Source: a virus. From it: DNA of 64,000 bases. Where the stretch lies: positions 62,001-126,000 of IMG/VR virus record IMGVR_UViG_3300025131_000007; one strand, written 5' to 3'. Below, piece by piece: positions 30,878 through 63,919 of the stretch (position 1 is the stretch's first letter; every line of letters begins with the position of its first letter). The translations under genes and the position numbers were made by a program. Under the pieces are notes generated by a model. That model was not told the origin of the DNA. It worked only from the letters and a program-made list of their open reading frames with translations, and searched no databases.

Positions 30878-31138
30878 ATGTATGGTATTCCACATTCAGG
30901 CGATTTGGTTAAATGGATTTCAGATTGGCATGTGTACTCCGCCGATAGCTTGGGGGAGGTGCATGGCGAGGTACCAGTTTATTCTTTTGGGGTGGTTTTG
31001 GAGGCATATAATGATCGTAAAATTTTAGTGGTTTTTTCGCATGATATAGGAACGCGATATCTAATAAATTTGGAATTAGTGGATTGTGAAGTAGTGAGCA
31101 AATCGAAGGCGAGGAACATAGACAATGAAACAGATTAA
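30878..31138 (+). CDS. GDLV-family small protein
   Basis: First member of the expanded family in this window: SGDLVKW near the start, then FGVVLEAYND and RYLINLE. The family pattern is a G-D-L-V strand, a G-(I/V)-V-V strand, and a final L-E-V-I strand, consistent with a small SH3-like barrel. 86 residues; overlaps the next gene by 14 bp. Confidence 0.65.
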   Translation: MYGIPHSGDLVKWISDWHVYSADSLGEVHGEVPVYSFGVVLEAYNDRKILVVFSHDIGTRYLINLELVDCEVVSKSKARNIDNETD

Positions 31139-31511
31139 GAAGGGTAGTCTCGTATGTGCATTCCGTCGGTCATATCCGGGGGTGGGGCTTGTTATACATC
31201 GGGAGAGAGATTTAGTGTCTTATCTTAAAATAGATGTGGAGCTTTTGCACCGGCGCAAGGAGATTGAAAACTCCAAGGATTTGACGGGACGCGTAACGAT
31301 GGAGTGGTGGGGAGACATCGAAGAACAGATCACCAACAGCACCAATCAACAAGTGGCGAAGGAATTTTTGGCATACAATCATTACGGAAGAAAAAAGGTT
31401 CTTAAAAAAGACTTTTCTTATGTGAAGTGGATTAAAAAACCCTCCGAATTTGCGCAAATTATTCATGATAAGGAGGGGTGGATCCCCTCAGATTGGCTTA
31501 GAGTTGTGTAG
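31125..31511 (+). CDS. Long GDLV-family protein (KGSLV)
   Basis: The 128 residues start IKKGSLVCAFRRSYPGVGLVI, the family strand pair, but a 70-residue charged insert (HRRKEIENSKDLTGR onward) separates it from the ending WIPSDWLRVV, which takes the place of LEVI. GTAGTCTCG-type spacing within the previous gene gives a weak ribosome site. Confidence 0.6.
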   Translation: MKQIKKGSLVCAFRRSYPGVGLVIHRERDLVSYLKIDVELLHRRKEIENSKDLTGRVTMEWWGDIEEQITNSTNQQVAKEFLAYNHYGRKKVLKKDFSYVKWIKKPSEFAQIIHDKEGWIPSDWLRVV

Positions 31512-31536
31512 CGTAATGACTTCTTTAGGAAATACT

Positions 31537-31547
31537 CATACTTATTA
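31537..31547 (+). promoter_or_regulatory. CATACTTATTA putative late promoter element
   Basis: CATACTTATTA 16 bp upstream of the start at 31564. Variant of the CTA(T/C)TTAT motif. Confidence 0.4.
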
Positions 31548-31563
31548 GTGTTGGAATATAGTT

Positions 31564-32208
31564 ATGGAACTGCTTTATGAAATTCAGGCCGCGCTCGATC
31601 GCCCCATTTGTTCGGGGTGGGATCGTGCATTTCTTGAATCTATTGCATTCCAGTTAGATAAGGGAAAAGTGCTAACGGGTCGACAAAAAACTATTCTTGG
31701 GAGAGTTTTGAGCCAAAACACCGCACAGGAAGAAGAAAATTTGCAAGCGTGGAAGGAGAAGTATTTTGCAGAATATTATTCGATTGCCCGTCAAGTTGCT
31801 TATTATCATCTGCGACAACCCTACTATGCGGAAATGGCGAAAGATATCTTAACAGGAAAAGTGCCCAGGCGCAAGCGATTTATTAAAATGATAAACAACA
31901 AATATACTAAGAAGGTGTTGCGGGAGTATGCGAAAAGCCCTCGTTTTTTATTAGGAACATATGTTAAAATAAAAACTAATTTTGATCGCACTCGCATGTC
32001 ATTTGACAAATATGGTGAAGGGGATATTTTTCGCAGTTGGGAGTATAAAAGAAAGGCTTTTTTGAATTTTGTCTCAAAAGGAGGCATTATTTTGTCAGTT
32101 GACGATGAAATTCATTCCGCAGCTAAGGGTGCCACTCGCTATAAAATTTTAGCAATTGGAGCAACAATACCTTTTTATGTGGAAGAAAGATTTTTGAAGC
32201 GGGGATAA
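31564..32208 (+). CDS. Unknown protein, paralogue of the 48011 gene
   Basis: The 214 residues have an N-terminal helical unit (WDRAFLESIAFQLDKGKVLTGRQKTIL) that matches WDYGFCESLLEQARNDRSLSPRQLEIL in the 48011 protein. Both then have KxxNxKYxxKVL and a C-terminal strand domain (TYVKIKTNFDRTR). The C-terminal half may be SH3-like, related to the small GDLV proteins. Function unknown. Confidence 0.6.
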   Translation: MELLYEIQAALDRPICSGWDRAFLESIAFQLDKGKVLTGRQKTILGRVLSQNTAQEEENLQAWKEKYFAEYYSIARQVAYYHLRQPYYAEMAKDILTGKVPRRKRFIKMINNKYTKKVLREYAKSPRFLLGTYVKIKTNFDRTRMSFDKYGEGDIFRSWEYKRKAFLNFVSKGGIILSVDDEIHSAAKGATRYKILAIGATIPFYVEERFLKRG

Positions 32209-32211
32209 CCA

Positions 32212-32222
32212 CATACTTATTA
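32212..32222 (+). promoter_or_regulatory. CATACTTATTA element
   Basis: CATACTTATTA ends one base before the GTG start at 32224. If it is a promoter the transcript would begin inside the gene, so either the true start is further in or the element drives genes downstream. Confidence 0.3.
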
Positions 32223-32223
32223 T

Positions 32224-32481
32224 GTGAGTGATAAAACTACAACCCCACTTTTCCCCTTTGTCTTTCGACTGGGACATTTTGTTAAATGTTCTTATGATTA
32301 CACCTTAACGTGGTGGATCGAAGAGGGTAGCACAAGAGTTTTTTATGGGGTGGTTGTGGGTTGTCACCAAAAAGATATTTATTTTCCGTACGGCACTTTT
32401 TATGATATTTTATGCACCGATGGCCATCTCAGATATTTTGCTGAATGGGAAATAAAACATGTGAAAAAACCAGATAAATAA
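32224..32481 (+). CDS. GDLV-family protein (LGHFV variant)
   Basis: An 85-residue protein: FRLGHFVKCSYD, then RVFYGVVVGCHQ, then HLRYFAEWEIKHV, the three-strand family order with GHFV in place of GDLV. GTG start. Confidence 0.55.
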   Translation: MSDKTTTPLFPFVFRLGHFVKCSYDYTLTWWIEEGSTRVFYGVVVGCHQKDIYFPYGTFYDILCTDGHLRYFAEWEIKHVKKPDK

Positions 32482-32490
32482 AAAAAATCC

Positions 32491-32519: not shown

Positions 32520-32569
32520 ATATATGAACGAAAGTTCATTATTATTCATACTTAGGAGAAAGAAAGTTT

Positions 32570-35062: not shown

Positions 35063-35245
35063 GTGGGAGATTTAGTCATGCTTCTGAGCCCTTGGAAAGA
35101 AGAAACCGGGGTGGTTAAGTTAGTATTGAAAATAAATGAACATCGTCTGAAATATGGGGATATATCGCGTTTTCTTACTCTTGATGAGAATACGCAATCG
35201 TGGCCGGCAAATTATGTGAAGATTGTAAGTAAGGCAAAAAAATAA
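35063..35245 (+). CDS. GDLV-family protein
   Basis: The 60 residues read GDLVMLLSPWKEETGVVKLV with NYVKIVSKAKK at the end. The GTG start removes the usual MK; the frame extends upstream without an ATG, so QVGDLV may be the real start. Confidence 0.55.
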   Translation: MGDLVMLLSPWKEETGVVKLVLKINEHRLKYGDISRFLTLDENTQSWPANYVKIVSKAKK

Positions 35246-35446: not shown

Positions 35447-35458
35447 TTTAATTATTTC

Positions 35459-35487
35459 TTGACAAAGGTTGTCAAACGGGATATATT
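35459..35487 (+). promoter_or_regulatory. Sigma-70-like promoter with AACGGG
   Basis: TTGACA (35459-35464), 17-bp spacer ending AAACGGGA, TATATT (35482-35487). Confidence 0.75.
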
Positions 35488-37293: not shown

Positions 37294-37473
37294 ATGAAGT
37301 GCGGCGATCTGATCGAGTGGTTTGACTACACCATTAACCAGAGATTTGTGGGTCTTTATTTGCGACGACGTAAAAAAGATACTGTTACATGGTGTGATAT
37401 TGTTGTGTTGTGCAACGGTAAAGAGGTTGAGTGGGTTTCCTGGCAATGTAGAGTAATAGATGAAAGTGGGTGA
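37294..37473 (+). CDS. KVGDLV-family protein (KCGDLI)
   Basis: Starts MKCGDLIEWFDYT, has FVGLYLRRRK and ends WQCRVIDESG; 59 residues. Start chosen at the ATG after AGGAG. The last 14 bp encode the next start. Confidence 0.7.
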   Translation: MKCGDLIEWFDYTINQRFVGLYLRRRKKDTVTWCDIVVLCNGKEVEWVSWQCRVIDESG

Positions 37474-37645
37474 TCTGGTATGGGTGAACGGTCACCCTCG
37501 GGATGGTCTTCGGAGATTCTTGGCTATTGTTGTAAGAGCACCAACACAGATTTACCCCGGCGCATATTTAGTGCATGGAATCGTGACGGGAAACAGATAT
37601 TGTTTTCATGGTAACGAATTAGAGGTGATAAGTGAAAGTCGGTAG
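37460..37645 (+). CDS. KVGDLV-family protein
   Basis: Starts MKVGDLVWVNGHPRDG, has FLAIVVRAPT and ends ELEVISESR; 61 residues; 14-bp overlap with both neighbours. Confidence 0.75.
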   Translation: MKVGDLVWVNGHPRDGLRRFLAIVVRAPTQIYPGAYLVHGIVTGNRYCFHGNELEVISESR

Positions 37646-37805
37646 CTTAGTGAGAGTCAAAAAAGGTGTTCCACACCAAGGAAACTATAAGTTAGGGATC
37701 GTGATGAGCGTATACCAAGATCATTGCTGGGTGCGCTGGAGAAGTTGGCCAGAAAATGATAAATGGATGTGCAATAGACATTTGGAAATCCTTAGTGAAG
37801 GTTAG
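37632..37805 (+). CDS. KVGDLV-family protein (KVGSLV)
   Basis: GTG start; MKVGSLVRVKKG, then KLGIVMSVYQDHCWVRW, then LEILSEG; 57 residues. Overlaps the next gene by 11 bp. Confidence 0.7.
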   Translation: MKVGSLVRVKKGVPHQGNYKLGIVMSVYQDHCWVRWRSWPENDKWMCNRHLEILSEG

Positions 37806-37956
37806 TGATGTAGTAATCTGGAACCTGGGCTATTCAGATGATGTATATTTGGTCTTATTGGTTGGTGATCATTATGCGTTATTATGGAGTCTTCACCAAA
37901 AATTTGTATTGAATATTACAAACGAGGAGTACCACGAATATGATATTCTTTCTTAA
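37795..37956 (+). CDS. KVGDLV-family protein (KVSDVV)
   Basis: GTG start inside the previous gene; MKVSDVVIWNLGYSDD, YLVLLVGDHYALLW, ending EEYHEYDILS; 53 residues. Divergent last member before a promoter. Confidence 0.6.
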   Translation: MKVSDVVIWNLGYSDDVYLVLLVGDHYALLWSLHQKFVLNITNEEYHEYDILS

Positions 37957-37974
37957 CTTTTTTCCTTTTTTCCC

Positions 37975-38003
37975 TTGACAACTCTATAACAACGGGATAC
38001 ATT
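37975..38003 (+). promoter_or_regulatory. Array promoter (TTGACA/TACATT with AACGGGA)
   Basis: TTGACA (37975-37980), 17-bp spacer ending AACAACGGGA, TACATT (37998-38003). Followed by ATATATACC and AGGAGTA, a leader shared with the promoters at 40172, 41459 and 47379. Confidence 0.85.
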
Positions 38004-38570: not shown

Positions 38571-38674
38571 AAGTTAAAGAAGATACATTATTCATTTTCG
38601 TATTGGTATTCATGGGGATCCCATTTATCGGGTTGCTGACAGTGGCGATTGAGATACTTAGGGGTGTGATATGA
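38567..38674 (+). CDS. Tiny membrane peptide
   Basis: 35 residues with one hydrophobic segment (LFIFVLVFMGIPFIGLLTVA). Overlaps the genes on both sides by four bases, so it is translated in series with them. Confidence 0.55.
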   Translation: MKVKEDTLFIFVLVFMGIPFIGLLTVAIEILRGVI

Positions 38675-38850
38675 AAGTAGGTGACTTGGTTAGGGCAACG
38701 CTGGCGACTGCGACCGTTCTGGGCATCATTATTGAGCCTTATGATACTCCCAAAGGAGTGTGGCGGGTTGCGTGGGTAGACGGTGGAACGTGGTGCAGCG
38801 GTTCACTATGCCACGAAAATAACATGGAGGTGGTAAATGAAAGTAGGTGA
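38671..38850 (+). CDS. KVGDLV-family protein
   Basis: MKVGDLVRATLATATVLGII then IEPYDTPKGVWRVAWVDGG and CHENNMEVVNESR; 59 residues. Close to the proteins at 39832 and 41668, which share the YD/YN-x-P-K-G-x-W-R-V middle or the CHENxMEV end. 14-bp overlap with the next gene. Confidence 0.75.
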   Translation: MKVGDLVRATLATATVLGIIIEPYDTPKGVWRVAWVDGGTWCSGSLCHENNMEVVNESR

Positions 38851-39049
38851 TTTGGTGAGAGTTAAAAACATTCATCTTCATTGGAGAGACGGATCGAAGA
38901 CGTTGCCTAAGAAGGTTCCCGGTTTTTTGATGCAGGTTTTGGCGATAAATGGAAGTCAGCGGTTTGTGATGATCTTAGAAGGCAAACACTTAGGTTTGAA
39001 ACATTGGATCAATGGCAAAGGCTTAGAGGTGATCAGTGAAGGTAGGTGA
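38837..39049 (+). CDS. KVGDLV-family protein
   Basis: MKVGDLVRVKNIHLHWRDGS, GFLMQVLAINGSQRFVMILE, ending GLEVISEGR; 70 residues; 14-bp overlaps on both sides. Confidence 0.75.
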   Translation: MKVGDLVRVKNIHLHWRDGSKTLPKKVPGFLMQVLAINGSQRFVMILEGKHLGLKHWINGKGLEVISEGR

Positions 39050-39221
39050 TGTGGTAAGGTTCATCCAGCCATCCGAAGAGTGGTTAGCAAAATTGTACGG
39101 GATCGTTTTGGGATGCGATGAGCATGGACGCACTGAGATTTTGTGGAGCGATGGCGACACGGATTATATGGATGGTGATGGTTTCTATGAAATGCTGGAG
39201 GTGATCAGTGAAAGTCGGTGA
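39036..39221 (+). CDS. KVGDLV-family protein (KVGDVV)
   Basis: GTG start; MKVGDVVRFIQPSEEW, YGIVLGCDEHGRTEILW, ending MLEVISESR; 61 residues; 14-bp overlaps on both sides. Confidence 0.75.
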   Translation: MKVGDVVRFIQPSEEWLAKLYGIVLGCDEHGRTEILWSDGDTDYMDGDGFYEMLEVISESR

Positions 39222-39390: not shown

Positions 39391-39578
39391 AAGTCGGTGA
39401 CTTGGTGAGATACTACGGGCGCGAAGAACTTGGGATCGTCGTTAAAGTTTCTGACTTTACCAAGGGACATATGGGACACGTTGTATATGTGTGGTTTGGT
39501 CCCGATCAAGTTATTGCTCAGTTTTCAAAACACTGGTTGGAGGTGGTAAATGAAGGTCGGCGATCTTGTAACATATAA
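39387..39578 (+). CDS. KVGDLV-family protein with extended C-terminus
   Basis: MKVGDLVRYYGREELGIVVK, then VVYVWFGPDQVIAQF and WLEVVNEGRRSCNI; 63 residues. The extra RRSCNI arises because the next gene has GGC instead of GGT at its glycine codon, which removes the TGA used elsewhere in the array. Confidence 0.75.
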   Translation: MKVGDLVRYYGREELGIVVKVSDFTKGHMGHVVYVWFGPDQVIAQFSKHWLEVVNEGRRSCNI

Positions 39579-39762
39579 AATCAGGAGTGATTTGCTTTCC
39601 CATGAACACAAAATGATGGGGATCGTCGTTAAAGTTGCCCAGGTGTCCCAATGCCTCACCGAGAAGCCGATGGTGTTGATCAATTGGGGATGGAAGAACG
39701 CGCCCCAACGATGGAACGCCATCGAATACGAAAACAGACTGAAAGTGGTTTCCGATGTTTGA
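39550..39762 (+). CDS. KVGDLV-family protein
   Basis: MKVGDLVTYKIRSDLLSHEH, MMGIVVKVAQVSQ, VLINWGWKNA, ending RLKVVSDV; 70 residues. Overlaps the previous gene by 29 bp. Confidence 0.75.
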   Translation: MKVGDLVTYKIRSDLLSHEHKMMGIVVKVAQVSQCLTEKPMVLINWGWKNAPQRWNAIEYENRLKVVSDV

Positions 39763-39831: not shown

Positions 39832-40011
39832 GTGAAAGTAGGTGACTTAGTGAGAGCAAAAGACCATCGGGTATTACCCGATGGAACCGTTGGTATCATT
39901 GTCGAGGTTTATGATATTCTCTTTTGGCTGGTTCATTGGACCGTTGGAGACAGTTGTTATCGGAGATTGTGCCATGAAAATGGCATGGAGGTCATCAATG
40001 AAAGTAGGTAG
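39832..40011 (+). CDS. KVGDLV-family protein
   Basis: GTG start; MKVGDLVRAKDHRVLPDGTV, GIIVEVYDILFWLVHW, CHENGMEVINESR; 59 residues. Near paralogue of the 38671 protein. 14-bp overlap with the next gene. Confidence 0.75.
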   Translation: MKVGDLVRAKDHRVLPDGTVGIIVEVYDILFWLVHWTVGDSCYRRLCHENGMEVINESR

Positions 40012-40153
40012 CTTAGTTTATGATGATCATTATGGCAATGGCATTGTGATTAATTCGTGGGATGACTTCAAGGGACAGATTGCTCGCGTGTATTTTCGAA
40101 CAGGTGAGGTAATCGGGGAGTATGGCACCAAGGTGCTAACGGTTGTAAAATAA
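39998..40153 (+). CDS. KVGDLV-family protein (KVGSLV), recent duplicate
   Basis: MKVGSLVYDDHYGNGIVINS, then VYFRTGEVIGEYGTKVLTVVK; 51 residues. Its first 53 bp after the initial base are identical to those of the gene at 40231. Confidence 0.75.
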   Translation: MKVGSLVYDDHYGNGIVINSWDDFKGQIARVYFRTGEVIGEYGTKVLTVVK

Positions 40154-40284
40154 GTTTTTTCAACTTTTTTCTTGACAACTCCCTGAGAACGGGATACATT
40201 ATATATACCAATAAAAATTAGGAGTAAATAGTGAAAGTAGGTAGCTTAGTTTATGATGATCATTATGGCAATGGCATTGTGATT
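39999..40284 (+). repeat. 53-bp exact direct duplication in two array genes
   Basis: The segments 39999-40051 and 40232-40284 are identical, covering the start of two paralogues; sequence diverges sharply afterwards. Confidence 0.9.
40172..40200 (+). promoter_or_regulatory. Array promoter (TTGACA/TACATT with AACGGGA)
   Basis: TTGACA (40172-40177), 17-bp spacer with CCCTGAGAACGGGA, TACATT (40195-40200). Nearly the same 60 bp, down to AATTAGGAGTAAA, recur at 41459. Confidence 0.85.
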
Positions 40285-40392
40285 GAAGTTTTGAGCGTTG
40301 GCGTGGTAATCCACTTTACCGACCACAAAAAGGTTTGTTTTTTGGATCAACAATTGATAGATGCCGTTGAGGTGATCAGTGAAGCCCGGTAA
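40231..40392 (+). CDS. KVGDLV-family protein (KVGSLV), recent duplicate
   Basis: GTG start; MKVGSLVYDDHYGNGIVIEV, VVIHFTDHKKVCFL, ending VEVISEAR; 53 residues. 14-bp overlap with the next gene. Confidence 0.75.
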   Translation: MKVGSLVYDDHYGNGIVIEVLSVGVVIHFTDHKKVCFLDQQLIDAVEVISEAR

Positions 40393-40582
40393 CTTAGTCA
40401 GAATCATCCACACCGGCTATTATGGAGCCAAAGAAGGCGTTGGGTTGGTGATGAAGGTCAGCAACCACTTTGAACACGTTCACGGTGGTTTTCCGCGCAG
40501 CGTTACCTATGTAACCGTGAAATGGAATAGTGATACAACTACCATCGAAGAAGATGATCAGTTGGTGGTGGTGAACAAATGA
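40379..40582 (+). CDS. KVGDLV-family protein (KPGNLV)
   Basis: GTG start; MKPGNLVRIIHTGYYG, GVGLVMKVSNHFEH, YVTVKWNSDTT, ending LVVVNK; 67 residues. ATGA overlap with the next gene. Confidence 0.75.
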   Translation: MKPGNLVRIIHTGYYGAKEGVGLVMKVSNHFEHVHGGFPRSVTYVTVKWNSDTTTIEEDDQLVVVNK

Positions 40583-41124: not shown

Positions 41125-41285
41125 AAGTAGGAGATTTAGTTAGACATAAAATAGGATCTCTTGATAGGAAAGGCATTGTTACAGAATGGAACGATCACGG
41201 TGATGTATGGGTTGTGTTTTTCGATGGCAGCAAGCCTACATGGTGTCGATGGCGAAACATTGAGGTGTTAAGTGAAAGTAGGTGA
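41121..41285 (+). CDS. KVGDLV-family protein
   Basis: MKVGDLVRHKIGSLDRKGIV, TEWNDHGDVWVVFFDGS, ending IEVLSESR; 54 residues. 14-bp overlap with the next gene. Confidence 0.75.
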   Translation: MKVGDLVRHKIGSLDRKGIVTEWNDHGDVWVVFFDGSKPTWCRWRNIEVLSESR

Positions 41286-41445
41286 CTTGGTGAAATGGAA
41301 CTTCAAGACCCGATACGCAGACTGGAAGGAGATAGGGATTATCATTCGCTGTATTCCCGGCACCGATAAACGAAAGGTTGTTCATTGGTCAAGCGGAGAG
41401 AGGGGTAGCTATAAACCCCACCAGTTGAAGGTGGTAAGAAAATAA
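41272..41445 (+). CDS. KVGDLV-family protein
   Basis: GTG start; MKVGDLVKWNFKTRYADWKE, IGIIIRCIPGTDKRKVVHW, ending QLKVVRK; 57 residues. Ends before the next promoter. Confidence 0.75.
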   Translation: MKVGDLVKWNFKTRYADWKEIGIIIRCIPGTDKRKVVHWSSGERGSYKPHQLKVVRK

Positions 41446-41458
41446 ATACTTTTTTTTC

Positions 41459-41487
41459 TTGACAACTCCCTGAGAACGGGATACATT
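41459..41487 (+). promoter_or_regulatory. Array promoter, copy of the 40172 cassette
   Basis: TTGACA (41459-41464), 17-bp spacer with CCCTGAGAACGGGA, TACATT (41482-41487). Confidence 0.85.
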
Positions 41488-41518: not shown

Positions 41519-41671
41519 GTGCATAGATTTGGATCCATTGTAGAATACGCTAACGGCGAATATGCTATGATCATAGACTATTACAAACCAACCAATACAT
41601 ATATAATTCGTTTCCTTGTTGATGAAGAAGAGATAGCCGCATCTGAAGATGAATTCACGGTGGTATCGTGA
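41519..41671 (+). CDS. KVGDLV-family protein (FGSIV)
   Basis: GTG start; MHRFGSIVEYANGEYAMIID, NTYIIRFLVDEEE, ending FTVVS; 50 residues. ATGA-type (GTGA) overlap with the next gene. Confidence 0.65.
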   Translation: MHRFGSIVEYANGEYAMIIDYYKPTNTYIIRFLVDEEEIAASEDEFTVVS

Positions 41672-44657: not shown

Positions 44658-44679
44658 TACAGAAAACGCATATTTCTTC

Positions 44680-44708
44680 TTGACAAACCCCGTTCAACGG
44701 GATACATT
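44680..44708 (+). promoter_or_regulatory. Promoter with CCCGTTCAACGGG dyad
   Basis: TTGACA (44680-44685), 17-bp spacer holding CCCCGTTCAACGGGA, TACATT (44703-44708). Identical in this core to the promoter at 46982. Confidence 0.88.
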
Positions 44709-44732
44709 ATATATACAATGGGAGTACATTAA

Positions 44733-46850: not shown

Positions 46851-46985
46851 ATGAATCTTGAAACAAATCTAATAGTTACGCTTGCCGCCATCGTAAAAAT
46901 GCTATCCTACTGTTATCCGGTGCTGATCGTGGCTATTCTTATGATGATAGCAGAAAAACACATCAAACCCGATCTTTCTTCTTGA
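46851..46985 (+). CDS. Tiny membrane protein
   Basis: 44 residues with one hydrophobic segment (SYCYPVLIVAILMMIA). Its stop codon lies in the next promoter's -35 box. Confidence 0.5.
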   Translation: MNLETNLIVTLAAIVKMLSYCYPVLIVAILMMIAEKHIKPDLSS

Positions 46986-47010
46986 CAAACCCCGTTCAAC
47001 GGGATACATT
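46982..47010 (+). promoter_or_regulatory. Promoter with CCCGTTCAACGGG dyad
   Basis: TTGACA (46982-46987), 17-bp spacer, TACATT (47005-47010); the core duplicates that at 44680. Confidence 0.88.
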
Positions 47011-47363: not shown

Positions 47364-47378
47364 AAGTCAACTATTTTC

Positions 47379-47407
47379 TTGACAAATCCCCTTCAACGGG
47401 ATACATT
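47379..47407 (+). promoter_or_regulatory. Promoter (CTTCAACGGG)
   Basis: TTGACA (47379-47384), 17-bp spacer with CCCCTTCAACGGGA, TACATT (47402-47407). Confidence 0.85.
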
Positions 47408-49041: not shown

Positions 49042-49118
49042 TCGCAGTGTATACTCTAATGATAATATCCGCATTATCTTGCATGGTGGCACTTTACGCA
49101 TGGAACAAACAACGATGA
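49038..49118 (+). CDS. Tiny membrane peptide
   Basis: 26 residues, one hydrophobic segment (VYTLMIISALSCMVALYAW). Overlaps the next start, so it continues the chain of coupled genes. Confidence 0.45.
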   Translation: MIAVYTLMIISALSCMVALYAWNKQR

Positions 49119-49321
49119 AAGTAGGAACACTAATCAAAACAATCCGCGCTCGAATAAACCTCCCAAAAGGTTCAATCGGGTTGGTTACATCATCGCACGT
49201 GCGAGATTACGGATCAGGCGTGGTCTTTTGGCATGAGGTTAAATTCATCGGTGGTCGTCGGAACGATACGACACTACGCATATTTGAGCGAGATTTTGAG
49301 GTACTCCATGAAAGCAGGTGA
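49115..49321 (+). CDS. KVGDLV-family protein (KVGTLI)
   Basis: MKVGTLIKTIRARINLPKGS, IGLVTSSHVRDYGSG, FERDFEVLHESR; 68 residues; 14-bp overlap with the next gene. First of the second cluster; members here share KG/PKGSxGLVT and IGG sequences. Confidence 0.75.
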   Translation: MKVGTLIKTIRARINLPKGSIGLVTSSHVRDYGSGVVFWHEVKFIGGRRNDTTLRIFERDFEVLHESR

Positions 49322-49511
49322 CTTAGTAAAGTTTGGGTATGTATACAGTGGGTGTGATTTGAACCACAAAACCGCGATTTACCTCGGTAAAAATTTTCTC
49401 ACCCGTGACGATGGCATGGTTATCCAAAACCACAAAGTTATGGTGACCGGACGATCTTCTTCCACTATCATTGATAGGGGATTGTTAAGATTTTTGAAGG
49501 TGATCAAATGA
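49308..49511 (+). CDS. KVGDLV-family protein (KAGDLV)
   Basis: MKAGDLVKFGYVYSGCDLNH, KTAIYLGKNFLTRDD, LLRFLKVIK; 67 residues. ATGA overlap with the next gene. Confidence 0.75.
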   Translation: MKAGDLVKFGYVYSGCDLNHKTAIYLGKNFLTRDDGMVIQNHKVMVTGRSSSTIIDRGLLRFLKVIK

Positions 49512-50771: not shown

Positions 50772-50990
50772 GTGTCCAATAAGTTTCAAATCGGTGCCTT
50801 GTGTATTCCAACGCCTTTTTTTATTGATTATTGGGTTGGTTATTGGATAATTGTAGCAATGGAAACCGACGAAGATATGAATATATCTTATGTGACGTTG
50901 TATAACCTTGTAAATGCTCGACAAGTGACTATTCCGATGCACGATATTGCAACTTATTTTGTGGTGGTTAGTGAACGATGGTTAAAATAG
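50772..50990 (+). CDS. GDLV-related protein, GSLW subgroup
   Basis: 72 residues, GTG start: KFQIGALCIPTPFFIDYWVG, YWIIVAMETDEDM, ISYVTLYNLVN, then VVVSERWLK. Together with the next two genes it forms a subgroup with W-x-I-V in place of G-I-V-V. Confidence 0.6.
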   Translation: MSNKFQIGALCIPTPFFIDYWVGYWIIVAMETDEDMNISYVTLYNLVNARQVTIPMHDIATYFVVVSERWLK

Positions 50991-51166
50991 GATCGTTATG
51001 GATTCGTGAGCATGATAACCGTTGTTACTGGATTGTTTCGAGACTAACAAAAATAAATACTAACAGAATAAACGTAACTTTATTAAGTATGAGCAAAGAC
51101 TTACAGATTACGTTCCCGGTTGATTACTTGTGTAAATCTTTTCGGTGTATAGGTAAATGTCAGTAG
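50978..51166 (+). CDS. GDLV-related protein, GSLW subgroup
   Basis: 62 residues: MVKIGSLWIREHDNRCYWIV, INVTLLSMSKDLQITFPVDY, FRCIGKCQ. 13-bp overlap with the previous gene. Confidence 0.65.
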   Translation: MVKIGSLWIREHDNRCYWIVSRLTKINTNRINVTLLSMSKDLQITFPVDYLCKSFRCIGKCQ

Positions 51167-51342
51167 AACCTATTCGTGTTGGGTCATTGTGGATTAGTTT
51201 ACATGCTTCTTATTCAGAGTGGTGGATTGTTGTGGATGTAGTTAGATCAAGGTCGGTTGTGTTCAGAAGGTTGAACCCTTATATGCAAATGGTTTGCCCT
51301 CTTGATCAAGTCGATAGGTTATTTCGGTGTATTAGTGAGTGA
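51157..51342 (+). CDS. GDLV-related protein, GSLW subgroup
   Basis: 61 residues: PIRVGSLWISLHASYSEWWI, VVDVVRSRSVVFRRLNPYMQ, DQVDRLFRCISE. Overlaps the previous gene. Confidence 0.65.
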   Translation: MSVEPIRVGSLWISLHASYSEWWIVVDVVRSRSVVFRRLNPYMQMVCPLDQVDRLFRCISE

Positions 51343-52236: not shown

Positions 52237-53178
52237 ATGAAACTTACAACAAAACAAATCAGACAGATTATTAGAGAAGAGATTAAAGATACTTTGAGTG
52301 AAGCTAGTCCTCAGTCTGAATTTGGTCTTCCGCACAAATTCACTAGTGAAGAGTTAATTGCTGTTTTTGAAAAACAACTAAATACACCCGGCCATAAGAT
52401 ACGCTCCGATAAAGAATATATTGAAAAAGCAGCCGATCAAATAACCAATAAAATGCGAAAAGAACCCAATAAAGAGACGAGACTTAAGCTCAGAGCTTTA
52501 AGAGAGAAAATAGAGGAATATACCAAAAGAGGTCGAGATAGAGAAGCGGCTGCAAAGGGAAGAATACGCGGCAGCGAACAGCATGCCCGGGCAGTAGCCG
52601 CTCAAAAATATAAGGATCAAGACCCAACGCAGCGGATTCAGAGGGGGTATTGGGGGGAAAACAAAATGAAACTTACCAAAACACAACTTAAGCAACTTAT
52701 TAGAGAAGCGCTTACACATGATATGTTGATGGATTACTTTGATGAGTATGGCGTTACAGACGATACCTCCGAAGAGGCGTATGCTGTTTGGAAGTTCGCA
52801 GCAGAAAAACATAAAGATCGAAAACCGGAACCGGAAGCAGACTATGATAGCATTAAAGCAGCGGAGAAACAAGGGTATGCTGATTACGCCGAACATCAAG
52901 ATACCATGGAACATGGTTACGAAGAAGGCAGCGCCGAAGAAGAAGCATATTATGATGCCTGGCACGATGCGCAGATATCGGCTGAACGCGAGTTGGACTA
53001 CGAGGACGAGGACAGTGACGAGGACATGTACGACTACGATGAAGAAAAGCGCTTATCTACTGCAAGCCCGGAAGAATTGATAGCTCAATATAACCAATAT
53101 AACGAAGATCTTAAAGAAATTGTCCGCGAAGAGATCTTAAAAGTATTGCACCCAATGGGTCAGACTCGAGTTGGATGA
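52237..53178 (+). CDS. Two-part IREE protein, candidate head-internal protein
   Basis: The 313 residues look like two genes fused in frame. The first half starts MKLTTKQIRQIIREEIKDTL. The second starts at residue 144 with MKLTKTQLKQLIREAL, and its DNA still carries GGGGGGAAAAC before an in-frame ATG at 52666, so it may also be translated alone. The C-terminal half is acidic (YEDEDSDEDMYDYDEEKR), then STASPEELIAQY, then MGQTRVG. The same tail elements recur at 54694 and 55545. The IREE start resembles phage capsid-targeting sequences. Confidence 0.7.
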   Translation: MKLTTKQIRQIIREEIKDTLSEASPQSEFGLPHKFTSEELIAVFEKQLNTPGHKIRSDKEYIEKAADQITNKMRKEPNKETRLKLRALREKIEEYTKRGRDREAAAKGRIRGSEQHARAVAAQKYKDQDPTQRIQRGYWGENKMKLTKTQLKQLIREALTHDMLMDYFDEYGVTDDTSEEAYAVWKFAAEKHKDRKPEPEADYDSIKAAEKQGYADYAEHQDTMEHGYEEGSAEEEAYYDAWHDAQISAERELDYEDEDSDEDMYDYDEEKRLSTASPEELIAQYNQYNEDLKEIVREEILKVLHPMGQTRVG

Positions 53179-53180
53179 TT

Positions 53181-53477
53181 ATGAAAAAGCTATTCGAAAA
53201 TTGGAACAAGTTCTTAACAGAAGAGCTTAACGAATTCACGCTGAGCCTTAATCCCGCGACAGGAAAATATGAATTAGAGTGCGCAGAAAAGCCCTTAGAA
53301 GAACGGCCAGAAGATTGGTGAAGCCCGGGCAAGCATGGGCTGGATGCCTATAAATCAAAGATGAAGAGAGAAGATTACATAAACCAAATAGCTGATTATC
53401 CCGAAGGAGCCCGAAAGTGGGCGCTCAGAGGTTTCGATCAAGCAAAAATATTAGACAACCAAGGAGTATTACTATGA
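53181..53477 (+). pseudogene. NWNKF-type gene interrupted by an in-frame TGA
   Basis: The frame begins MKKLFENWNKFLTEELNEF and stops at TGA after 46 codons (ERPEDW). The same frame then runs on for 51 codons (SPGKHGLDAYKSKMKREDYI onward) and ends at a TGA that overlaps the next ATG exactly as coupled genes do here. So the original gene was probably 98 codons. Either a nonsense change, a sequencing error or programmed readthrough explains it. The first 13 residues nearly match the next gene. Confidence 0.6.
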
Positions 53478-54223
53478 AAAAACTATTCGAGAATTGGAAC
53501 AAGTTTATAAACGAAAACGAGCAAACAAAGCCATCATGGCTAGTCGAACTCGAAAGATATGTCGAAAAAGCAAAAGAATTCTTAGAATTAGGAAAGCCGA
53601 TTGATTTGCTTAATTGGGGTGCTTTAGCGATAGAAATAGAGGAGGACGACCAATGGCTAGCGCATAAAGTAAAAGCACTATCCGGTCAAGATACAGTCGT
53701 ATCTTCACCAGAAGCACCAGAAGCACTAGAAAAGGCACTATTGCACGTACAACAGGGGCTTGAAAAATGGAATGAGAATTCCCCAACAGAAGAAGAGCTA
53801 AATGAGATTTCCGGAAAACAGAAAGCGCACATTGCCAGACAGAAAAAGCAACAAGAAGAAAGGGCGAAAAAAGATGCGGAGGCTCAGGAACTTATACGAT
53901 TGATAGGGAAGCTGGGATGGGATGTTAATGTTAGGAAGTTAGAAGGCCGATATCAAATTACCGTGAATAAAGCTTTCGATTCTTCATATGATGAAGAGGA
54001 ACCGTCTGACGAGGAAGAACTAGCGCAAACGTTCAAGAATAGCTTTGTTGACGCTTATACCCCCTTCATCCCTACGCTAGAGATTGACGTACAACCAGAT
54101 CCGAACAGTGAGTGGGGTCATGATTTTATTTTTGATATTACCATCGACGGCGATACGGAACAAATTAAAACAGACGACCTCGAAGACATAAAGACCTACC
54201 TCAGACAGAAGTCAAGGAAATAG
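53474..54223 (+). CDS. NWNKF-type acidic protein, candidate head-internal protein
   Basis: 249 residues starting MKKLFENWNKFINENEQ, a W-x-x-F-I-x-E amphipathic start like T4 internal proteins (TYQEFIAE). Next is a helical region with many Glu (EALEKALLHVQQGLEKWNEN), a lysine-rich coiled coil (ARQKKQQEERAKKDAEA), and a strand-rich C-terminal domain (WDVNVRKLEGRYQITVNKAF). The start follows AAGGAG. Function unknown. Confidence 0.7.
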   Translation: MKKLFENWNKFINENEQTKPSWLVELERYVEKAKEFLELGKPIDLLNWGALAIEIEEDDQWLAHKVKALSGQDTVVSSPEAPEALEKALLHVQQGLEKWNENSPTEEELNEISGKQKAHIARQKKQQEERAKKDAEAQELIRLIGKLGWDVNVRKLEGRYQITVNKAFDSSYDEEEPSDEEELAQTFKNSFVDAYTPFIPTLEIDVQPDPNSEWGHDFIFDITIDGDTEQIKTDDLEDIKTYLRQKSRK

Positions 54224-54228
54224 GATGA

Positions 54229-54348
54229 ATGCACGATATCGTCAGTAACACCGCCGATTTAGCCATACTAGTGTTTTTTGGGTCAATGGTGTGCGCATGT
54301 CTGCTTAATGCTGCATACTACATTATGACGGGAATAGGAAACAGGTAG
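54229..54348 (+). CDS. Small membrane protein
   Basis: 39 residues with a hydrophobic segment (LAILVFFGSMVCACLLNAAY). AGGA upstream. Its stop overlaps the next GTG. Confidence 0.5.
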   Translation: MHDIVSNTADLAILVFFGSMVCACLLNAAYYIMTGIGNR

Positions 54349-54440
54349 TGAGAAATTTCGAGATTACTAACCGGTATTTTGTTTTAGGCATGATTGTTGG
54401 CGGCTTTGTATTGTTTTTAATGGAACTGGGAATGTGCTAA
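54348..54440 (+). CDS. Tiny membrane peptide
   Basis: 30 residues, GTG start: NRYFVLGMIVGGFVLFLMEL. Coupled to the previous one. The following 250 bp contain only a 13-codon frame and AT-rich DNA with the promoter element at 54656. Confidence 0.4.
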   Translation: MRNFEITNRYFVLGMIVGGFVLFLMELGMC

Positions 54441-54655
54441 TGAAGCTTAAAAGGGTTTATATACTTTACAGCACCCCGTGAATTCAATCACGATTGCAAT
54501 GCAAAGAAACAAAGCTATCAGAAGGTAGTTCTATGTGCCCTGTTGTTTGCTGTTAAAAGAATCTGAATGAATCGGTTGTGTTGTTCGGTGTGTTCTGCGT
54601 GGTTTTAATATAAAAAAATTTTACCGGTTAAAAAAATACGGCAAAAAATTTCGAA

Positions 54656-54664
54656 ACTATTTAC
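54656..54664 (+). promoter_or_regulatory. CTATTTAC putative late promoter element
   Basis: ACTATTTAC 29 bp before the 54694 start, in AT-rich DNA with no TTGACA. Confidence 0.5.
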
Positions 54665-54693
54665 TGGTAACATAACATTTTAGGAGATATATT

Positions 54694-55542
54694 ATGCGCA
54701 TTTCAAAACACCAACTTAGGGAACTTATTAAAGAAGAAGTTGAGAGAACCTTTGAAGGCTATGAATGGGGGGAAGAGGAAGACGATCGTCCATATGCAAC
54801 ACGACGCGATAAAATGTCTGGTGCAGAAAGACATGGCCATGATACTAGAGACACATTACGCAAAAAGCAAACCGCAGCGGATGCCAAAGATGCGCAACTA
54901 ACCCGGCAATTTCAAAAATACGCCCCCACCGATGCCGAACGCGAAACTGAGAAAAAAGCAAGAAAGATGAGAGACCAGGGAGAAAAAAACCAAGCGGCCG
55001 CCCAGCGTCGACAAGAAAAAAACGTTGAGGAATTTCGAGATGCTTTAGCTAAATATTACCCGGATGAAGCTGCCCAAGATGAAAAAAATCTTGGACGTTG
55101 GGCAACAGTTATTGCAAAGGATTTGCGGCTTGATTCCGGCGGAGCTAAGTCTCATGGGTATAAAACTTTCCAATACCCAATCCGAAACCACCAAATGAAA
55201 AAATGGGCTAAAATGAAAGGTCTTCCGGAAGTTGAACCCGAAGAACGCGGCATTGGCCAAAAGCTTGGTTCGTTCTTCAAAGGCAAAGGTTTTAAAGAAA
55301 GCTTAGAACAGATTATCAAAGAAGAAACTGGGCGCGCTTTGTCTGAAAACGTAGCGCCCGAGCTACAACCATTTTTACAAGATGAAGTAATACTTCAAAT
55401 GTGGTCAGCCTTGGCGCGCGTAAGCAGAAGCGGAGGTGGGCGCGAAAAGAAAATAGAAGACTTTATCCGCTTTATAGAACTTATGAAAAAGCATCATCCA
55501 GAACGAATAATGCATGCAACTAGTCAGACTCGGGTTGGATAA
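54694..55542 (+). CDS. IKEE-type basic protein, candidate head-internal protein
   Basis: 282 residues starting MRISKHQLRELIKEEVERTF. A long, charged, low-complexity middle follows (DTRDTLRKKQTAADAKDAQL, ARKMRDQGEKNQAAAQRRQE). A helical domain follows, then a second SLEQIIKEETGRAL and the tail HATSQTRVG shared with the 52237 protein. AGGAG precedes the ATG. The repeated I-(R/K)-E-E points to the same class as the 52237, 55545 and 56190 proteins. Confidence 0.7.
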   Translation: MRISKHQLRELIKEEVERTFEGYEWGEEEDDRPYATRRDKMSGAERHGHDTRDTLRKKQTAADAKDAQLTRQFQKYAPTDAERETEKKARKMRDQGEKNQAAAQRRQEKNVEEFRDALAKYYPDEAAQDEKNLGRWATVIAKDLRLDSGGAKSHGYKTFQYPIRNHQMKKWAKMKGLPEVEPEERGIGQKLGSFFKGKGFKESLEQIIKEETGRALSENVAPELQPFLQDEVILQMWSALARVSRSGGGREKKIEDFIRFIELMKKHHPERIMHATSQTRVG

Positions 55543-55544
55543 TT

Positions 55545-56081
55545 ATGATAATCAAGCCAACTGAACTCCGACAAATCATTCAAGAAGTTATTAACGAAGA
55601 AATGATGACCGAAGGCCGCATGAAAGAACTCTTTGGAGAGTTTGAAAATGACGTTATGGAGCTTGAAGAAGACGGCCAAGTACATATCGATGATATTATA
55701 ACAATGTTCAAAAGCAGATATGAACCCATGGGATTAGGCCCTGAAGATATGAACGGAATGATAGACATCATGGTTGAGGCCGGCCTTTTAACGAACGACG
55801 GATCTTCTGGTTTTTATACTACTTCCGACGATGACGAAGAATACAATGACTCAAATTGGACCCCAGATCCGGGCCAACCGGGTGGCGGCGAAGATGTCTG
55901 GCTTCCTCCTTATGAGGGCGACGAAGAAGATGAGTATGACTACGAAGAAGAAGACTTCTTATCTACTGCTAGCCCGGAAGACTTGATTGCTCGATATAAG
56001 AAAAATAAAAATATCGAAGAAATCATCAAAGAAGAAACAGCCGCTTATTTGAAAGAAGCCGAGGGTGATTGGGGCCAATAA
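55545..56081 (+). CDS. IREE-class acidic protein
   Basis: 178 residues: IKPTELRQIIQEVINEEMMT start, a helical domain with LGPEDMNGMIDIMVEAGLL, then a very acidic end (YEGDEEDEYDYEEEDF), STASPEDLIARYKKN and a final IIKEETAAYLKE. The STASPE(D/E)LIA(Q/R)Y block is shared with the second half of the 52237 protein. Starts two bases after the previous stop. Confidence 0.7.
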   Translation: MIIKPTELRQIIQEVINEEMMTEGRMKELFGEFENDVMELEEDGQVHIDDIITMFKSRYEPMGLGPEDMNGMIDIMVEAGLLTNDGSSGFYTTSDDDEEYNDSNWTPDPGQPGGGEDVWLPPYEGDEEDEYDYEEEDFLSTASPEDLIARYKKNKNIEEIIKEETAAYLKEAEGDWGQ

Positions 56082-57046: not shown

Positions 57047-57334
57047 ATGTTACAAAAAAGCCTATTTAAAGTAGGAGATATAGTAATGGACGTTCAAACG
57101 CGAGAGATTGGCCTTCTTGTGAAACGATATGATGTGTTTCAGGAATATTTTCATAATGAAAGTGAAGAAATAAGAAGTATTTGGGCATGGGAAATATTAT
57201 GGGTAGGGTCTCAATCTACAAAGGAAAATCGTTACCACTCTTATACCGAAATGGGTTTAATTAGCCTTCTTCGTGATAAAACTTTCAAGCTAATCACACT
57301 CAATTCTGCTGGCGTTGAGGATAAAAATGGATGA
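57047..57334 (+). CDS. GDLV-family protein (KVGDIV), EILW subgroup
   Basis: 95 residues: FKVGDIVMDVQTREIGLLVK, then IWAWEILWVG, then YTEMGLISLLRDK. It shares this order with the proteins at 57331 and 62255 (W-x-x-x-x-W, E-x-G-L). Confidence 0.65.
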   Translation: MLQKSLFKVGDIVMDVQTREIGLLVKRYDVFQEYFHNESEEIRSIWAWEILWVGSQSTKENRYHSYTEMGLISLLRDKTFKLITLNSAGVEDKNG

Positions 57335-57657: not shown

Positions 57658-58108
57658 TAAAACTTGGAATGTCTATAAAATCTTTAACAATGGGCGGCGC
57701 GCCAAAGCACCATTATATCATTTTGATTGTTCGATCGAAAAAATGAATGAAAATTATTTTGAAAACGATATAAAACCGTTTTTAATAAAAAAATTTGGTC
57801 ATAAAATAAAAGATTCCACTCTTACTGTTGTGCGATCGGATTTGTCACAAACCCGAGAGACCTCGGAAAATAAATTTGAACAAGAAAAAAAATTAAGATA
57901 CAAAGTCTTTTCTAAATACCTAAATAAAAATTTAATAAACAATCAACTCATTGAATGTGTTCTTTTGTTTGCCAAAGATACTAATTGGAAGTGGAGATGG
58001 TGTGTAGTAAGAGCATCCACCTCTGGAATTATAGAGATTATCTCACCAGAACGAGATTCGTATGAAGAGGCACACGAATGGATGGAAAAAGAAATAGAAA
58101 AACTTTAA
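57650..58108 (+). CDS. Unknown alpha-beta protein
   Basis: 152 residues: TWNVYKIFNNGRRAKAPLYH, LTVVRSDLSQTRET, IECVLLFAKDTNWKWRW, and a helical acidic end. It may be a small phage alpha-beta domain. Start chosen at ATG after GGAGC. Not recognised. Confidence 0.6.
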   Translation: MNNKTWNVYKIFNNGRRAKAPLYHFDCSIEKMNENYFENDIKPFLIKKFGHKIKDSTLTVVRSDLSQTRETSENKFEQEKKLRYKVFSKYLNKNLINNQLIECVLLFAKDTNWKWRWCVVRASTSGIIEIISPERDSYEEAHEWMEKEIEKL

Positions 58109-58332
58109 ATATCGAAGACTTCCAAATAGGAGACTTGGTTCTTATCGCAGATGGTAGGGCAATAATAGAAGAGCCATCGTTTGGAAAAAGAACTTATGGA
58201 ATAATTGTTCCGGACAGGAGAAATTCCGTAAACGGCATATTTCCACAAATCGCTGTTTACGTTTTTCATAAAGAATATGTTGAGTTTCATTGGCCCAGTT
58301 ATTTACAAATTGTTTCTTCTACTGCTGCATAA
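58078..58332 (+). CDS. GDLV-family protein (IGDLV)
   Basis: 84 residues: FQIGDLVLIADGRAIIEEPS, TYGIIVPDRRN, IAVYVFHKEYVEFHW, LQIVSS. GAGG precedes the ATG inside the previous gene. Confidence 0.65.
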   Translation: MDGKRNRKTLNIEDFQIGDLVLIADGRAIIEEPSFGKRTYGIIVPDRRNSVNGIFPQIAVYVFHKEYVEFHWPSYLQIVSSTAA

Positions 58333-62223: not shown

Positions 62224-62227
62224 TCCT

Positions 62228-62593: not shown

Positions 62594-62969
62594 AGATATA
62601 GGTGTTCATGGAAATCTTTTTGGAGGCGTAATGTTAGCATGGCTCGATGAAGCCGGCGGTGCATATGCCGGCCAATGCTGTGATACGCCGCGTATGGTTA
62701 CTGTTCGTATGGGAGAAACCTTTTTTAAGAAGCCCATACGCCCCGGTCATCTTATTAAAATTTACGGAGAGGTGATTAGGGTGGGAACAACTTCTGTAAC
62801 CCTTAGATTGGAAGCCAGACGGCATTCTGTGTATAATGGAACTCAAGTTGTAGCATGCACGACTAAAATCGTATTTGTTCGCGTGGATGGAGATGGAGAA
62901 GCAATTCCGTTAAGTGATAAAGTGAAAAATAAATATAAACACAAAGTAGGAACAGAAAAGGTATGTTAA
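62559..62969 (+). CDS. Hotdog-fold acyl-CoA thioesterase-like protein
   Basis: 136 residues. ICKGKDIGVHGNLFGGVML, then AWLDEAGGAYA, carries the HGxLFGG...DExxG pattern of YciA/acyl-CoA thioesterases, followed by TVRMGETFFKKPIRPGHLI. These enzymes release fatty acids from CoA. Carriage by a phage suggests tuning of host lipid metabolism or the membrane. Starts inside the previous gene. Confidence 0.82.
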   Translation: MELISTHICKGKDIGVHGNLFGGVMLAWLDEAGGAYAGQCCDTPRMVTVRMGETFFKKPIRPGHLIKIYGEVIRVGTTSVTLRLEARRHSVYNGTQVVACTTKIVFVRVDGDGEAIPLSDKVKNKYKHKVGTEKVC

Positions 62970-63010
62970 AGATGATATACTAATTATACGTGTTGGAAGG
63001 AGATATAAAC

Positions 63011-63340
63011 ATGGTTTCTGAGAATTCAGGATGGGATAACTATTCAAAGTTAGTTCTTCAACAACTGGAAGGTGTGGCGAAAAGCATTGAGCAGTTGCGC
63101 GATGAATTTCAAGCAATAAAAGAACAACTTACTGAATTAAAAGCTAAAGAAGACCGGATTCAAGACCTAAAAGTTTGGAAAGAAAGGGTGGATGAAGTAA
63201 TGTCTCCTACACAATTGCAACAAGCCATGAAAGATGTGGAAGAACTTAAAATGTTTAAAACAAAAGCAATTACAGTATTCATGGTAGTTCAGTTTTTTAT
63301 GGCATTTGCAACGTTGGGGATCCAATTCATCGATATATAG
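63011..63340 (+). CDS. Coiled-coil protein with C-terminal membrane segment (holin-like)
   Basis: 109 residues: a long charged helix (QLEGVAKSIEQLRDEFQAIK onward), then a membrane segment at the C-terminus (AITVFMVVQFFMAFATLGI). This layout matches XhlA/holin-like small proteins and could release the amidase at 4144. AAGGAG precedes the ATG. Also fits a structural membrane anchor. Confidence 0.55.
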   Translation: MVSENSGWDNYSKLVLQQLEGVAKSIEQLRDEFQAIKEQLTELKAKEDRIQDLKVWKERVDEVMSPTQLQQAMKDVEELKMFKTKAITVFMVVQFFMAFATLGIQFIDI

Positions 63341-63349
63341 GAATTAATT

Positions 63350-63430
63350 ATGGCTTATAAATATAATAGAGGCTCCATCGGTGCCGAAGGAAATGCCACG
63401 TGGAAACGCATAGCTTTAAGTGCTTGGTAA
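63350..63430 (+). CDS. Tiny protein
   Basis: 26 residues: AYKYNRGSIGAEGNATWKRI then SAW. AGGA before the ATG. Plausible but too short to support well. Confidence 0.35.
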   Translation: MAYKYNRGSIGAEGNATWKRIALSAW

Positions 63431-63444
63431 AAAATAGGATATAA

Positions 63445-63597
63445 ATGTTATTTAGTTTTGATAAGTTTTGGAAAACTATTGGTTTATTAGTTGCAACATG
63501 GATAGCTTATGGAATTTGGGGATATGAATTCTGTGTTATTACTCTATTGGTTCTTTTGATATCGGTAAATTTTGAAAAAACAGATTCTTTCATATAG
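63445..63597 (+). CDS. Small membrane protein (two segments)
   Basis: 50 residues, hydrophobic over most of its length (TIGLLVATWIAYGIWGY, FCVITLLVLLISV). AGGA upstream. Function unknown. Confidence 0.5.
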   Translation: MLFSFDKFWKTIGLLVATWIAYGIWGYEFCVITLLVLLISVNFEKTDSFI

Positions 63598-63652
63598 ACA
63601 TGTCAACAAGACACTAATTATTTAGAATTTAAGTGGCTTAGGTATATATAAT

Positions 63653-63919
63653 ATGGAAAGAAAGGATAGTTTTGGGGCTATGCTGGCTAAATCTTTAAAT
63701 ATTGGAGATTTAGTGCAGTGGTCTCGGTGGAATAGTGAAGAAGGGGATTGGGAACCTCACTATGGAATTATTTCAGCAATAAAAACTGAAATTAAGGCAA
63801 ATCGTCTTGTTTCGATATCCAAAGTGGTTCCCATTCAAGATCAAACTTCAGAATTAGAATTTTTTACCCTTAGTTTGAGATTGATATCCCCGATAAAAGA
63901 TAAACCCGCCATTCAATGA
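63653..63919 (+). CDS. GDLV-family protein (IGDLV)
   Basis: 88 residues: SLNIGDLVQWSRWNSEEGDW, HYGIISAIKTEIK, FFTLSLRLISP. Last family member in the window. ATG in an AT-rich stretch with a weak ribosome site. Confidence 0.65.
   Translation: MERKDSFGAMLAKSLNIGDLVQWSRWNSEEGDWEPHYGIISAIKTEIKANRLVSISKVVPIQDQTSELEFFTLSLRLISPIKDKPAIQ

Follow-up and report, generated by a model that had tools for sequence, protein, structure and literature searches.

Arrays of small, overlapping genes for predicted SH3-like barrels in an uncultured T4-like virus

The gene family and its distribution

We analysed a family of small genes in a window of 64,000 nucleotides (nt), bases 62001-126000 of the 135,976-base contig of IMG/VR record IMGVR_UViG_3300025131_000007. 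The contig is T4-like by its terminase (phrog_2), portal (phrog_213) and head protein (phrog_138), and it represents an uncultured T4-like bacterial virus, probably a marine one. A first-pass annotation had proposed that about fifty small genes of the window, with products starting in an MKVGDLV-type motif, form one family concentrated in two blocks. The literal N-terminal motif is present in 22 open reading frames of the window. An iterated profile search of all six frames, seeded from this motif, yielded 33 window frames with a domain at an expectation value (E) below 0.01, 31 of them below 1e-4, all on the + strand. When enlarged with relatives, the profile identified 39 members in the contig, 38 of them inside the window; the 8,133 frames searched gave no member on the - strand, and the rest of the contig holds a single weak relative, at contig position 61133. 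About six looser family-like genes (at 31125, 37795, 41519, 47667, 57331 and 62255; positions are those of the window unless stated otherwise, and genes are named by their first base) fit the pattern weakly, so that the earlier figure was slightly high but fair. The profile joins the members into one family, and they are dense at 36.25-42.0 and 49.1-50.4 kb, where the annotation had placed them. Beside the second cluster, at 50772-51342, three adjacent genes of 61-72 amino acids (aa) form a separate look-alike set (xxIGSLWI...).

A search of related phages, which had been proposed as a check, recovered large sets there too. The profile was positive in six of 11 related uncultured contigs, with 6-30 members each (11-37 by iteration), and 23 of 23 further contigs chosen by their gene junctions hold 7-24 members each. 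A 30-base DNA pattern of the junction is found in at least 119 IMG/VR stretches and in four GTDB stretches, all contigs of metagenome-assembled genomes, one being a Tara Red Sea assembly. Members searched by tblastn against a cultured phage collection gave chance-level matches only, and neither the profile nor the junction pattern matched T4, KVP40, P-SSM2, S-SM2, HTVC008M, Microcystis phage Mel-JY01, Flavobacterium phage immuto or one 484-kb uncultured phage. In relative G001, whose helicase is 85% identical, roughly half of the set has orthologues (39-80% identity); most of the dense block has no clear orthologue there, though the assembly may lack some of them, as the G001 contig ends inside the array.

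Gene junctions and promoters

We found that adjacent members overlap by exactly 14 nt in 62 pairs and by 4 nt in 20 pairs. At a typical 14-nt junction (ttgGAGGTGatca followed by GTGAAAGTCGGTGATTTGGTA) the upstream product ends in L-E-V-I-S-E-S-R-stop and the downstream product begins M-K-V-G-D-L-V, with the TGA stop lying within GG-TGA-T. The start of the next gene, GTGAAAGTCGGTGAT (MKVGD), encodes in the other frame the tail and stop of the preceding gene (S-E-S-R-stop), and the codons of the C-terminal L-E-V hold the Shine-Dalgarno (SD) sequence of the next gene. Residue 5 is D, N or S because the codons GAY, AAY and AGY give the upstream stops TGA, TAA and TAG in the other frame; likewise, M-Q-V-G-D starts pair with A-S-R tails and M-K-V-G-D starts with E-S-R tails.

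The ratio of GAG to GAA at the Glu codon of L-E-V is 61:2 in coupled genes, compared with 10:11 in uncoupled genes (P = 1.1e-6) and 205:297 elsewhere (P = 2.5e-19, both by Fisher's test). As GAG is in excess only in coupled genes, whereas a constraint on the protein alone predicts background usage, the Glu codon appears to be kept as a nucleotide signal. The Gly4 codon is GGT at 60 of 61 14-nt junctions and at 52 of 100 positions elsewhere, and all ten SD-coupled 14-nt junctions of the whole contig open a family or family-like gene. An extended set of 151 array loci has 579 distinct 14-nt and 84 4-nt junctions, a frequency that is biased upward since the loci were partly picked by the junction pattern; in this set coupled genes use GAG 422 times and GAA nine times. 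The annotation had described conserved ends and a variable middle. This pattern stands, but not as a purely protein feature of the ends, because L-E-V-(I/V) and S-E-S-R are shaped largely by the SD and start of the next gene. With the upstream stop held in its 5' end and the downstream SD in its 3' end, any such gene, or cassette, can join any other in frame.

The blocks are separated by breaks of about 70 nt that carry a repeated promoter of sigma-70 type, CTTGACAAN(12-16)GGGWTAYATT. Seven exact copies lie between 35.4 and 47.4 kb, compared with 0 expected. The features are listed in Table 1.

Table 1. Family genes, repeated promoters and an example junction in the window (pLDDT, predicted local distance difference test; percentages for G001 orthologues are as compared with that relative)
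Feature	Position	Strand	Evidence or remark
Outlying family gene, 86 aa	30878..31138	+	enlarged profile; orthologue in G001
Weak longer family-like gene, 128 aa	31125..31511	+	14-nt SD-coupled overlap; gene order kept in relatives
Family gene, 69 aa	33614..33823	+	profile
Outlying family gene	35063..35245	+	enlarged profile, G001 comparison
Promoter CTTGACAAN..GGGATATATT, sigma-70-type	35458..35487	+	repeat search
Family gene, 71 aa, long first loop	36251..36466	+	profile; G001 orthologue 61% identity
Family gene, 89 aa	36453..36722	+	profile; 14-nt overlap with preceding gene
Family gene, 74 aa	36685..36909	+	enlarged profile
Family gene, 59 aa, MKCGDLIEW	37294..37473	+	enlarged profile
Family gene, 61 aa	37460..37645	+	profile; 14-nt overlap
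Family gene, 57 aa, GTG start, MKVGS (upstream stop TAG)	37632..37805	+	profile; 14-nt overlap
Weak family-like gene, 53 aa, MKVSDVVI	37795..37956	+	pattern alone
Repeated promoter	37974..38003	+	repeat search
Family gene, 59 aa, SH3-like barrel model	38671..38850	+	AlphaFold2 pLDDT 91.1
Family gene, 70 aa	38837..39049	+	profile; 14-nt overlap
Cassette junction example	39022..39056	+	SD GAGGTG in L-E-V codons, then GTG start; upstream TGA in GGTGAT
Family gene, 61 aa	39036..39221	+	profile; 14-nt overlap; no relative recovered by pattern-based IMG/VR scan
Family gene, 60 aa	39208..39390	+	profile; 14-nt overlap
Family gene, 63 aa	39387..39578	+	profile; 4-nt overlap (ATGA)
Family gene, 70 aa, ends LKVV	39550..39762	+	profile; no coupled gene after
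Family gene, 59 aa, 3' of promoter	39832..40011	+	profile; closest paralogue of 38671 (55.6%)
Family gene, 51 aa, mosaic with 40231	39998..40153	+	nucleotide comparison
Repeated promoter, 5' of 40231	40171..40200	+	repeat search
Family gene, 53 aa, mosaic partner of 39998	40231..40392	+	nucleotide comparison
Family gene, 67 aa, MKPGN (upstream stop TAA)	40379..40582	+	profile; 14-nt overlap
Family gene, 61 aa	40579..40764	+	profile; 4-nt overlap
Family gene, 69 aa	40761..40970	+	profile; 4-nt overlap
Family gene, 55 aa	40957..41124	+	profile; 14-nt overlap
Family gene, 54 aa	41121..41285	+	profile; 4-nt overlap
Family gene, 57 aa, last of operon, ends LKVV	41272..41445	+	profile; 14-nt overlap
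Repeated promoter, 30 bases identical to 40171 copy	41458..41487	+	repeat search
Weak family-like gene, 50 aa, 3' of promoter	41519..41671	+	profile E = 0.7
Family gene, 54 aa	41668..41832	+	profile; 4-nt overlap
Family gene, 66 aa	41829..42029	+	profile; 4-nt overlap; G001 orthologue 67.8%
Repeated promoter, 5' of DUF2201 gene	44679..44708	+	repeat search
Family gene, 72 aa	46628..46846	+	profile
Repeated promoter	46981..47010	+	repeat search
Repeated promoter	47378..47407	+	repeat search
Family gene, 68 aa, second cluster	49115..49321	+	profile
Family gene, 67 aa, most divergent in array	49308..49511	+	profile; 14-nt overlap; AlphaFold2 pLDDT 65
Family gene, 64 aa	49508..49702	+	profile; 4-nt overlap
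Family gene, 71 aa	49699..49914	+	profile; 4-nt overlap
Family gene, 54 aa	49893..50057	+	profile; paralogue of 50054 (54.5%)
Family gene, 60 aa	50054..50236	+	profile; 4-nt overlap
Family gene, 64 aa	50233..50427	+	profile; 4-nt overlap; G001 orthologue 80%
Outlying longer family gene	57047..57334	+	enlarged profile, G001 comparison
Outlying family gene	58078..58332	+	enlarged profile, G001 comparison
Outlying family gene	63680..63919	+	enlarged profile; G001 orthologue 76%

Fold, divergence and cassette turnover

An AlphaFold2 model of the 38671 protein, built on an alignment of 30 window members, has a mean pLDDT of 91.1 and a predicted template modelling score of 0.75, and consists of five strands, the fifth preceded by a short helical turn. 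Its best Foldseek matches in the PDB are Tudor, PWWP and SH3 barrels (template modelling score ~0.6-0.73, E ~0.06-0.3), in agreement with the small SH3-like barrel that had been proposed; weak Foldseek E-values are usual for 60-residue barrels. The structure prediction gave a confident barrel for this protein but not for the divergent member 49308. Thus, a common SH3-like barrel is well supported by modelling for a typical member and would extend to the others. Foldseek also matched many unnamed phage proteins in BFVD. The accessions of the top matches (A0A516M7R5, A0A516M749, A0A516M733, A0A516M7Q9 and neighbours) are near-consecutive, which suggests that further phage genomes in the databases hold arrays of the same fold.

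The family profile conserves M-K-V-G-D-L-V, G-I-V-V, V-x-W, D-G and L-E-V-I, and the positions between these are nearly free. The conserved residues are core hydrophobics, glycines and residues involved in coupling; the loops are variable, and the profile has no invariant polar residue of the kind that a shared active site would need. Isoelectric points (pI) span acidic to basic, with members of this phage mostly basic (median 9.2) and medians of relatives at 4.9-8.2. No known family was identified: sequence searches of Pfam, PHROGs, PADLOC and PDB were insignificant save for one weak match to a PHROG of unknown function (phrog_3782, E = 7e-4, one member of ten). The only Pfam match to a KOW/NusG-type domain, PF23291 KOW4_SPT5, is under cut-off (E = 0.11), DUF4314 scored 12.5 bits compared with a gathering cut-off of 27, and weak resemblances to ribosomal L14 and eS4 are below significance. 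Five members tried against PADLOC-DB 2.0.0, a defence library that hardly covers anti-defence, gave no match. In a few relatives (L203:2517-3011 and others) a conserved domain that starts MKVRNAIKKVKSHFKKQGIDIEV precedes the barrel in one fused protein; this N-terminal domain is of unknown kind and function, and the fusion is the sole type noted.

The members have diverged strongly: clustering of 1,468 of them at 50% identity leaves 844 clusters, and two members of one locus never reach 90%. Within the contig, a paralogue of at least 50% identity exists for four of 39 members and one of at least 70% for none, a scarcity that rules out recent tandem duplication and with it the earlier description of the set as recently duplicated. 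Positive selection in the middle segment, for which a test had been proposed, is likewise not borne out. Orthologues are under purifying selection, with a ratio of non-synonymous to synonymous substitution rates (dN/dS) of 0.22 over 97 pairs (middle segment 0.22, ends 0.235).

Near-identical contigs differ by whole cassettes. For example, two loci from different samples (L118 and L120) have flanks of 8.4 and 2.6 kb that are 99.5% and 100% identical and differ by one 176-bp cassette, bounded by perfect 20-bp repeats (ATGAAAGTCGGTGATTTGGT), each a copy of the family start sequence. About ten distinct indels separate near-identical contigs, and eight of them break at family starts. In the window, 39998 and 40231 are identical over their first 53 of 53 nt and unrelated over the remainder, and judged by this comparison the pair is a very recent mosaic. 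The variety of members is therefore attributed to old divergence together with cassette turnover, rather than to recent duplication or positive selection.

Several other genes of the phage were noted. A 1,152-aa protein at 7548-11006 reads as a bacterial-type DnaE (PolIII alpha), despite the T4-like structural genes, and an apparent full-length GroEL of 523 aa (19924-21495) lies 3' of a sigma-70-like promoter. Between the two SH3 clusters, a MoxR-like AAA ATPase (AAA_5) adjoins a DUF2201 metallopeptidase/VWA protein (43309-46049). Several genes at 52237-56081 have a common N-terminal segment of MKLTKxQLKQLIREE type, possibly a shared targeting or cleavage tag. A 651-aa protein at contig 127141-129096 (L009:1641-3596) matches a nicotinamide-nucleotide adenylyltransferase PHROG (E = 5e-7); salvage of NAD+ is an established bypass of NAD-depleting defences.

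Possible roles of the array

The sequences show the anatomy of the cassettes, the embedded SD and stop signals, the promoter repeats, purifying selection and cassette-level polymorphism. We narrowly favour the interpretation that it is an exchangeable, translationally coupled array of single-domain SH3/Tudor-like binders serving as a toolkit for host takeover and counter-defence. Each cassette is one small gene whose 5' end carries the stop of the upstream gene and whose 3' end carries the SD of the downstream gene, and homologous recombination between the short identical starts would add, remove and swap cassettes. Judging from their near-identical sigma-70-type promoters, the operons would be transcribed early by host RNA polymerase, and ribosomes would re-initiate from gene to gene, so that many small proteins are made together. 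Less certainly, each orthologue may bind a different host or host-defence macromolecule, which is probable given that there is no common active site and the loops differ, and the whole array may be a changeable kit for both purposes. The common barrel, free loops, varied charge and phage-specific sets fit such a binding-protein kit; an anti-defence or host-factor binding role is plausible on these sequence features. More tentatively, the array could be an integrase-free cassette system, in which the gene start acts as recombination site, translation signal and upstream stop, and from which lineages build, shuffle and exchange repertoires of one binding fold.

Several points weigh against this interpretation. 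None of the members has been given a function or a target. The contigs come from metagenomes, and misassembly at repeats could account for part of the single-cassette differences; the evidence for recombination at the junction is itself indirect, because whole-gene indels break at gene starts under any mechanism. Foldseek E-values no better than 0.06 in PDB and 0.008 in BFVD are weak, the most divergent array member, 49308, gave a poor model, and promoter form is the sole ground for early expression.

A narrower role as an anti-defence arsenal, in which each barrel inhibits or sequesters one immune-system component or signal, would suit the high gene turnover between related phages and the separate set of each phage, and has parallels in known systems. 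Nip of Bacillus phage phi3T is an accessory protein with predicted SH3-like domains that acts against host defence (PMC11984713), but at 279 aa, with two such domains and an HU-like dimerisation domain, it is alike by description only. T4 also amplifies an anti-toxin gene, tifA, by recombination between short repeats (microhomology), altering its copy number (PMC9391042); those copies, however, are identical, laboratory-selected and unstable, whereas the array genes are old and highly diverged and have only the gene-start sequence in common. As positive selection left no sign, the five members tried found no PADLOC defence model and no target is seen, we consider this specific role rather unlikely. 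Binding of nucleic acid, RNA polymerase or ribosome by KOW-like proteins that retune host transcription and translation is suggested by the weak resemblances to KOW4_SPT5, L14 and eS4, by the basic members of this phage and by MotB, an early DNA-binding protein of T4 with a predicted N-terminal SH3-like KOW domain (PMC7827196). MotB, however, carries an additional OB-fold domain and is strongly conserved across the T-even phages, whereas family members are single-domain, and the family profile has no match in the T4 and KVP40 genomes. Since all of these matches are below significance, pI varies from acidic to basic, with lower medians in relatives, and the profile has neither a conserved basic patch nor a KOW signature, this alternative is unlikely.

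The array might also be mostly neutral, with cassettes multiplying by easy recombination at a junction that makes their gain nearly cost-free, as the 39998/40231 mosaic illustrates, and with most proteins doing little. Neutral duplication predicts many recent duplicates, but these are rare; broken members are hardly found, the space is retained in many genomes and orthologues are under purifying selection, which makes a neutral array improbable. Phage decoration and tail proteins include small beta-barrels, and the products could conceivably belong to the virion or to its assembly, for instance as decoration or scaffold barrels. This is very improbable, as the array is distant from the terminase, portal and head genes (contig 23-38 kb) and near-identical contigs vary by single genes in copy number and content.

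The favoured reading, an exchangeable array of coupled binders, can also be set against known systems. In the Viral AlphaFold Database, SH3/Tudor-like folds are reported to rank first, fourth and fifth in size among the structural clusters exclusive to bacterial viruses (PMC12487901). Like the family, these are small stand-alone barrels of unknown function, but that study gives folds only, and tandem arrays, dual-coding junctions, promoters and cassette turnover were not found in it. Integrons, offered as analogy and not membership, likewise have a promoter and a changeable row of single-gene cassettes with a common boundary sequence. An integron depends on attC sites and a tyrosine integrase, whereas the phage array would need neither (no search for attC or integrase was made), its cassettes all have one fold, and its boundary is coding in two frames, with overlapping start and stop and an SD. 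PSHCP of marine cyanobacteria is similar in length (about 60 aa) and has weak SH3-like similarity, but is extremely conserved and cellular, with a suggested ribosome association (PMC4215834). Phage SH3/Tudor-like mini-proteins as a fold class (PMC12487901) and hypervariable phage accessory islands are thus already known; the array form lacks precedent among MotB, Nip and tifA. No cassette array with a dual-coding junction was described in the literature searched, which mostly excluded subscription papers and preprints.

Widespread uncultured phages devote about 5-10 kb to dozens of different barrels, and the junction eases exchange of whole genes: one short sequence is at once coding, a context for ribosome binding, a stop codon and, probably, the homology for recombination. 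The cassette array offers a testable hypothesis for the commonness of the SH3/Tudor-like fold in phages, and the approximately 1,500 fold-matched but sequence-diverse binders are a natural library to screen for host targets and anti-defence. If the tentative proposal of integrase-free cassettes is true, they would be a viral counterpart of diversified libraries of receptors or antitoxins, directed at host targets that change.

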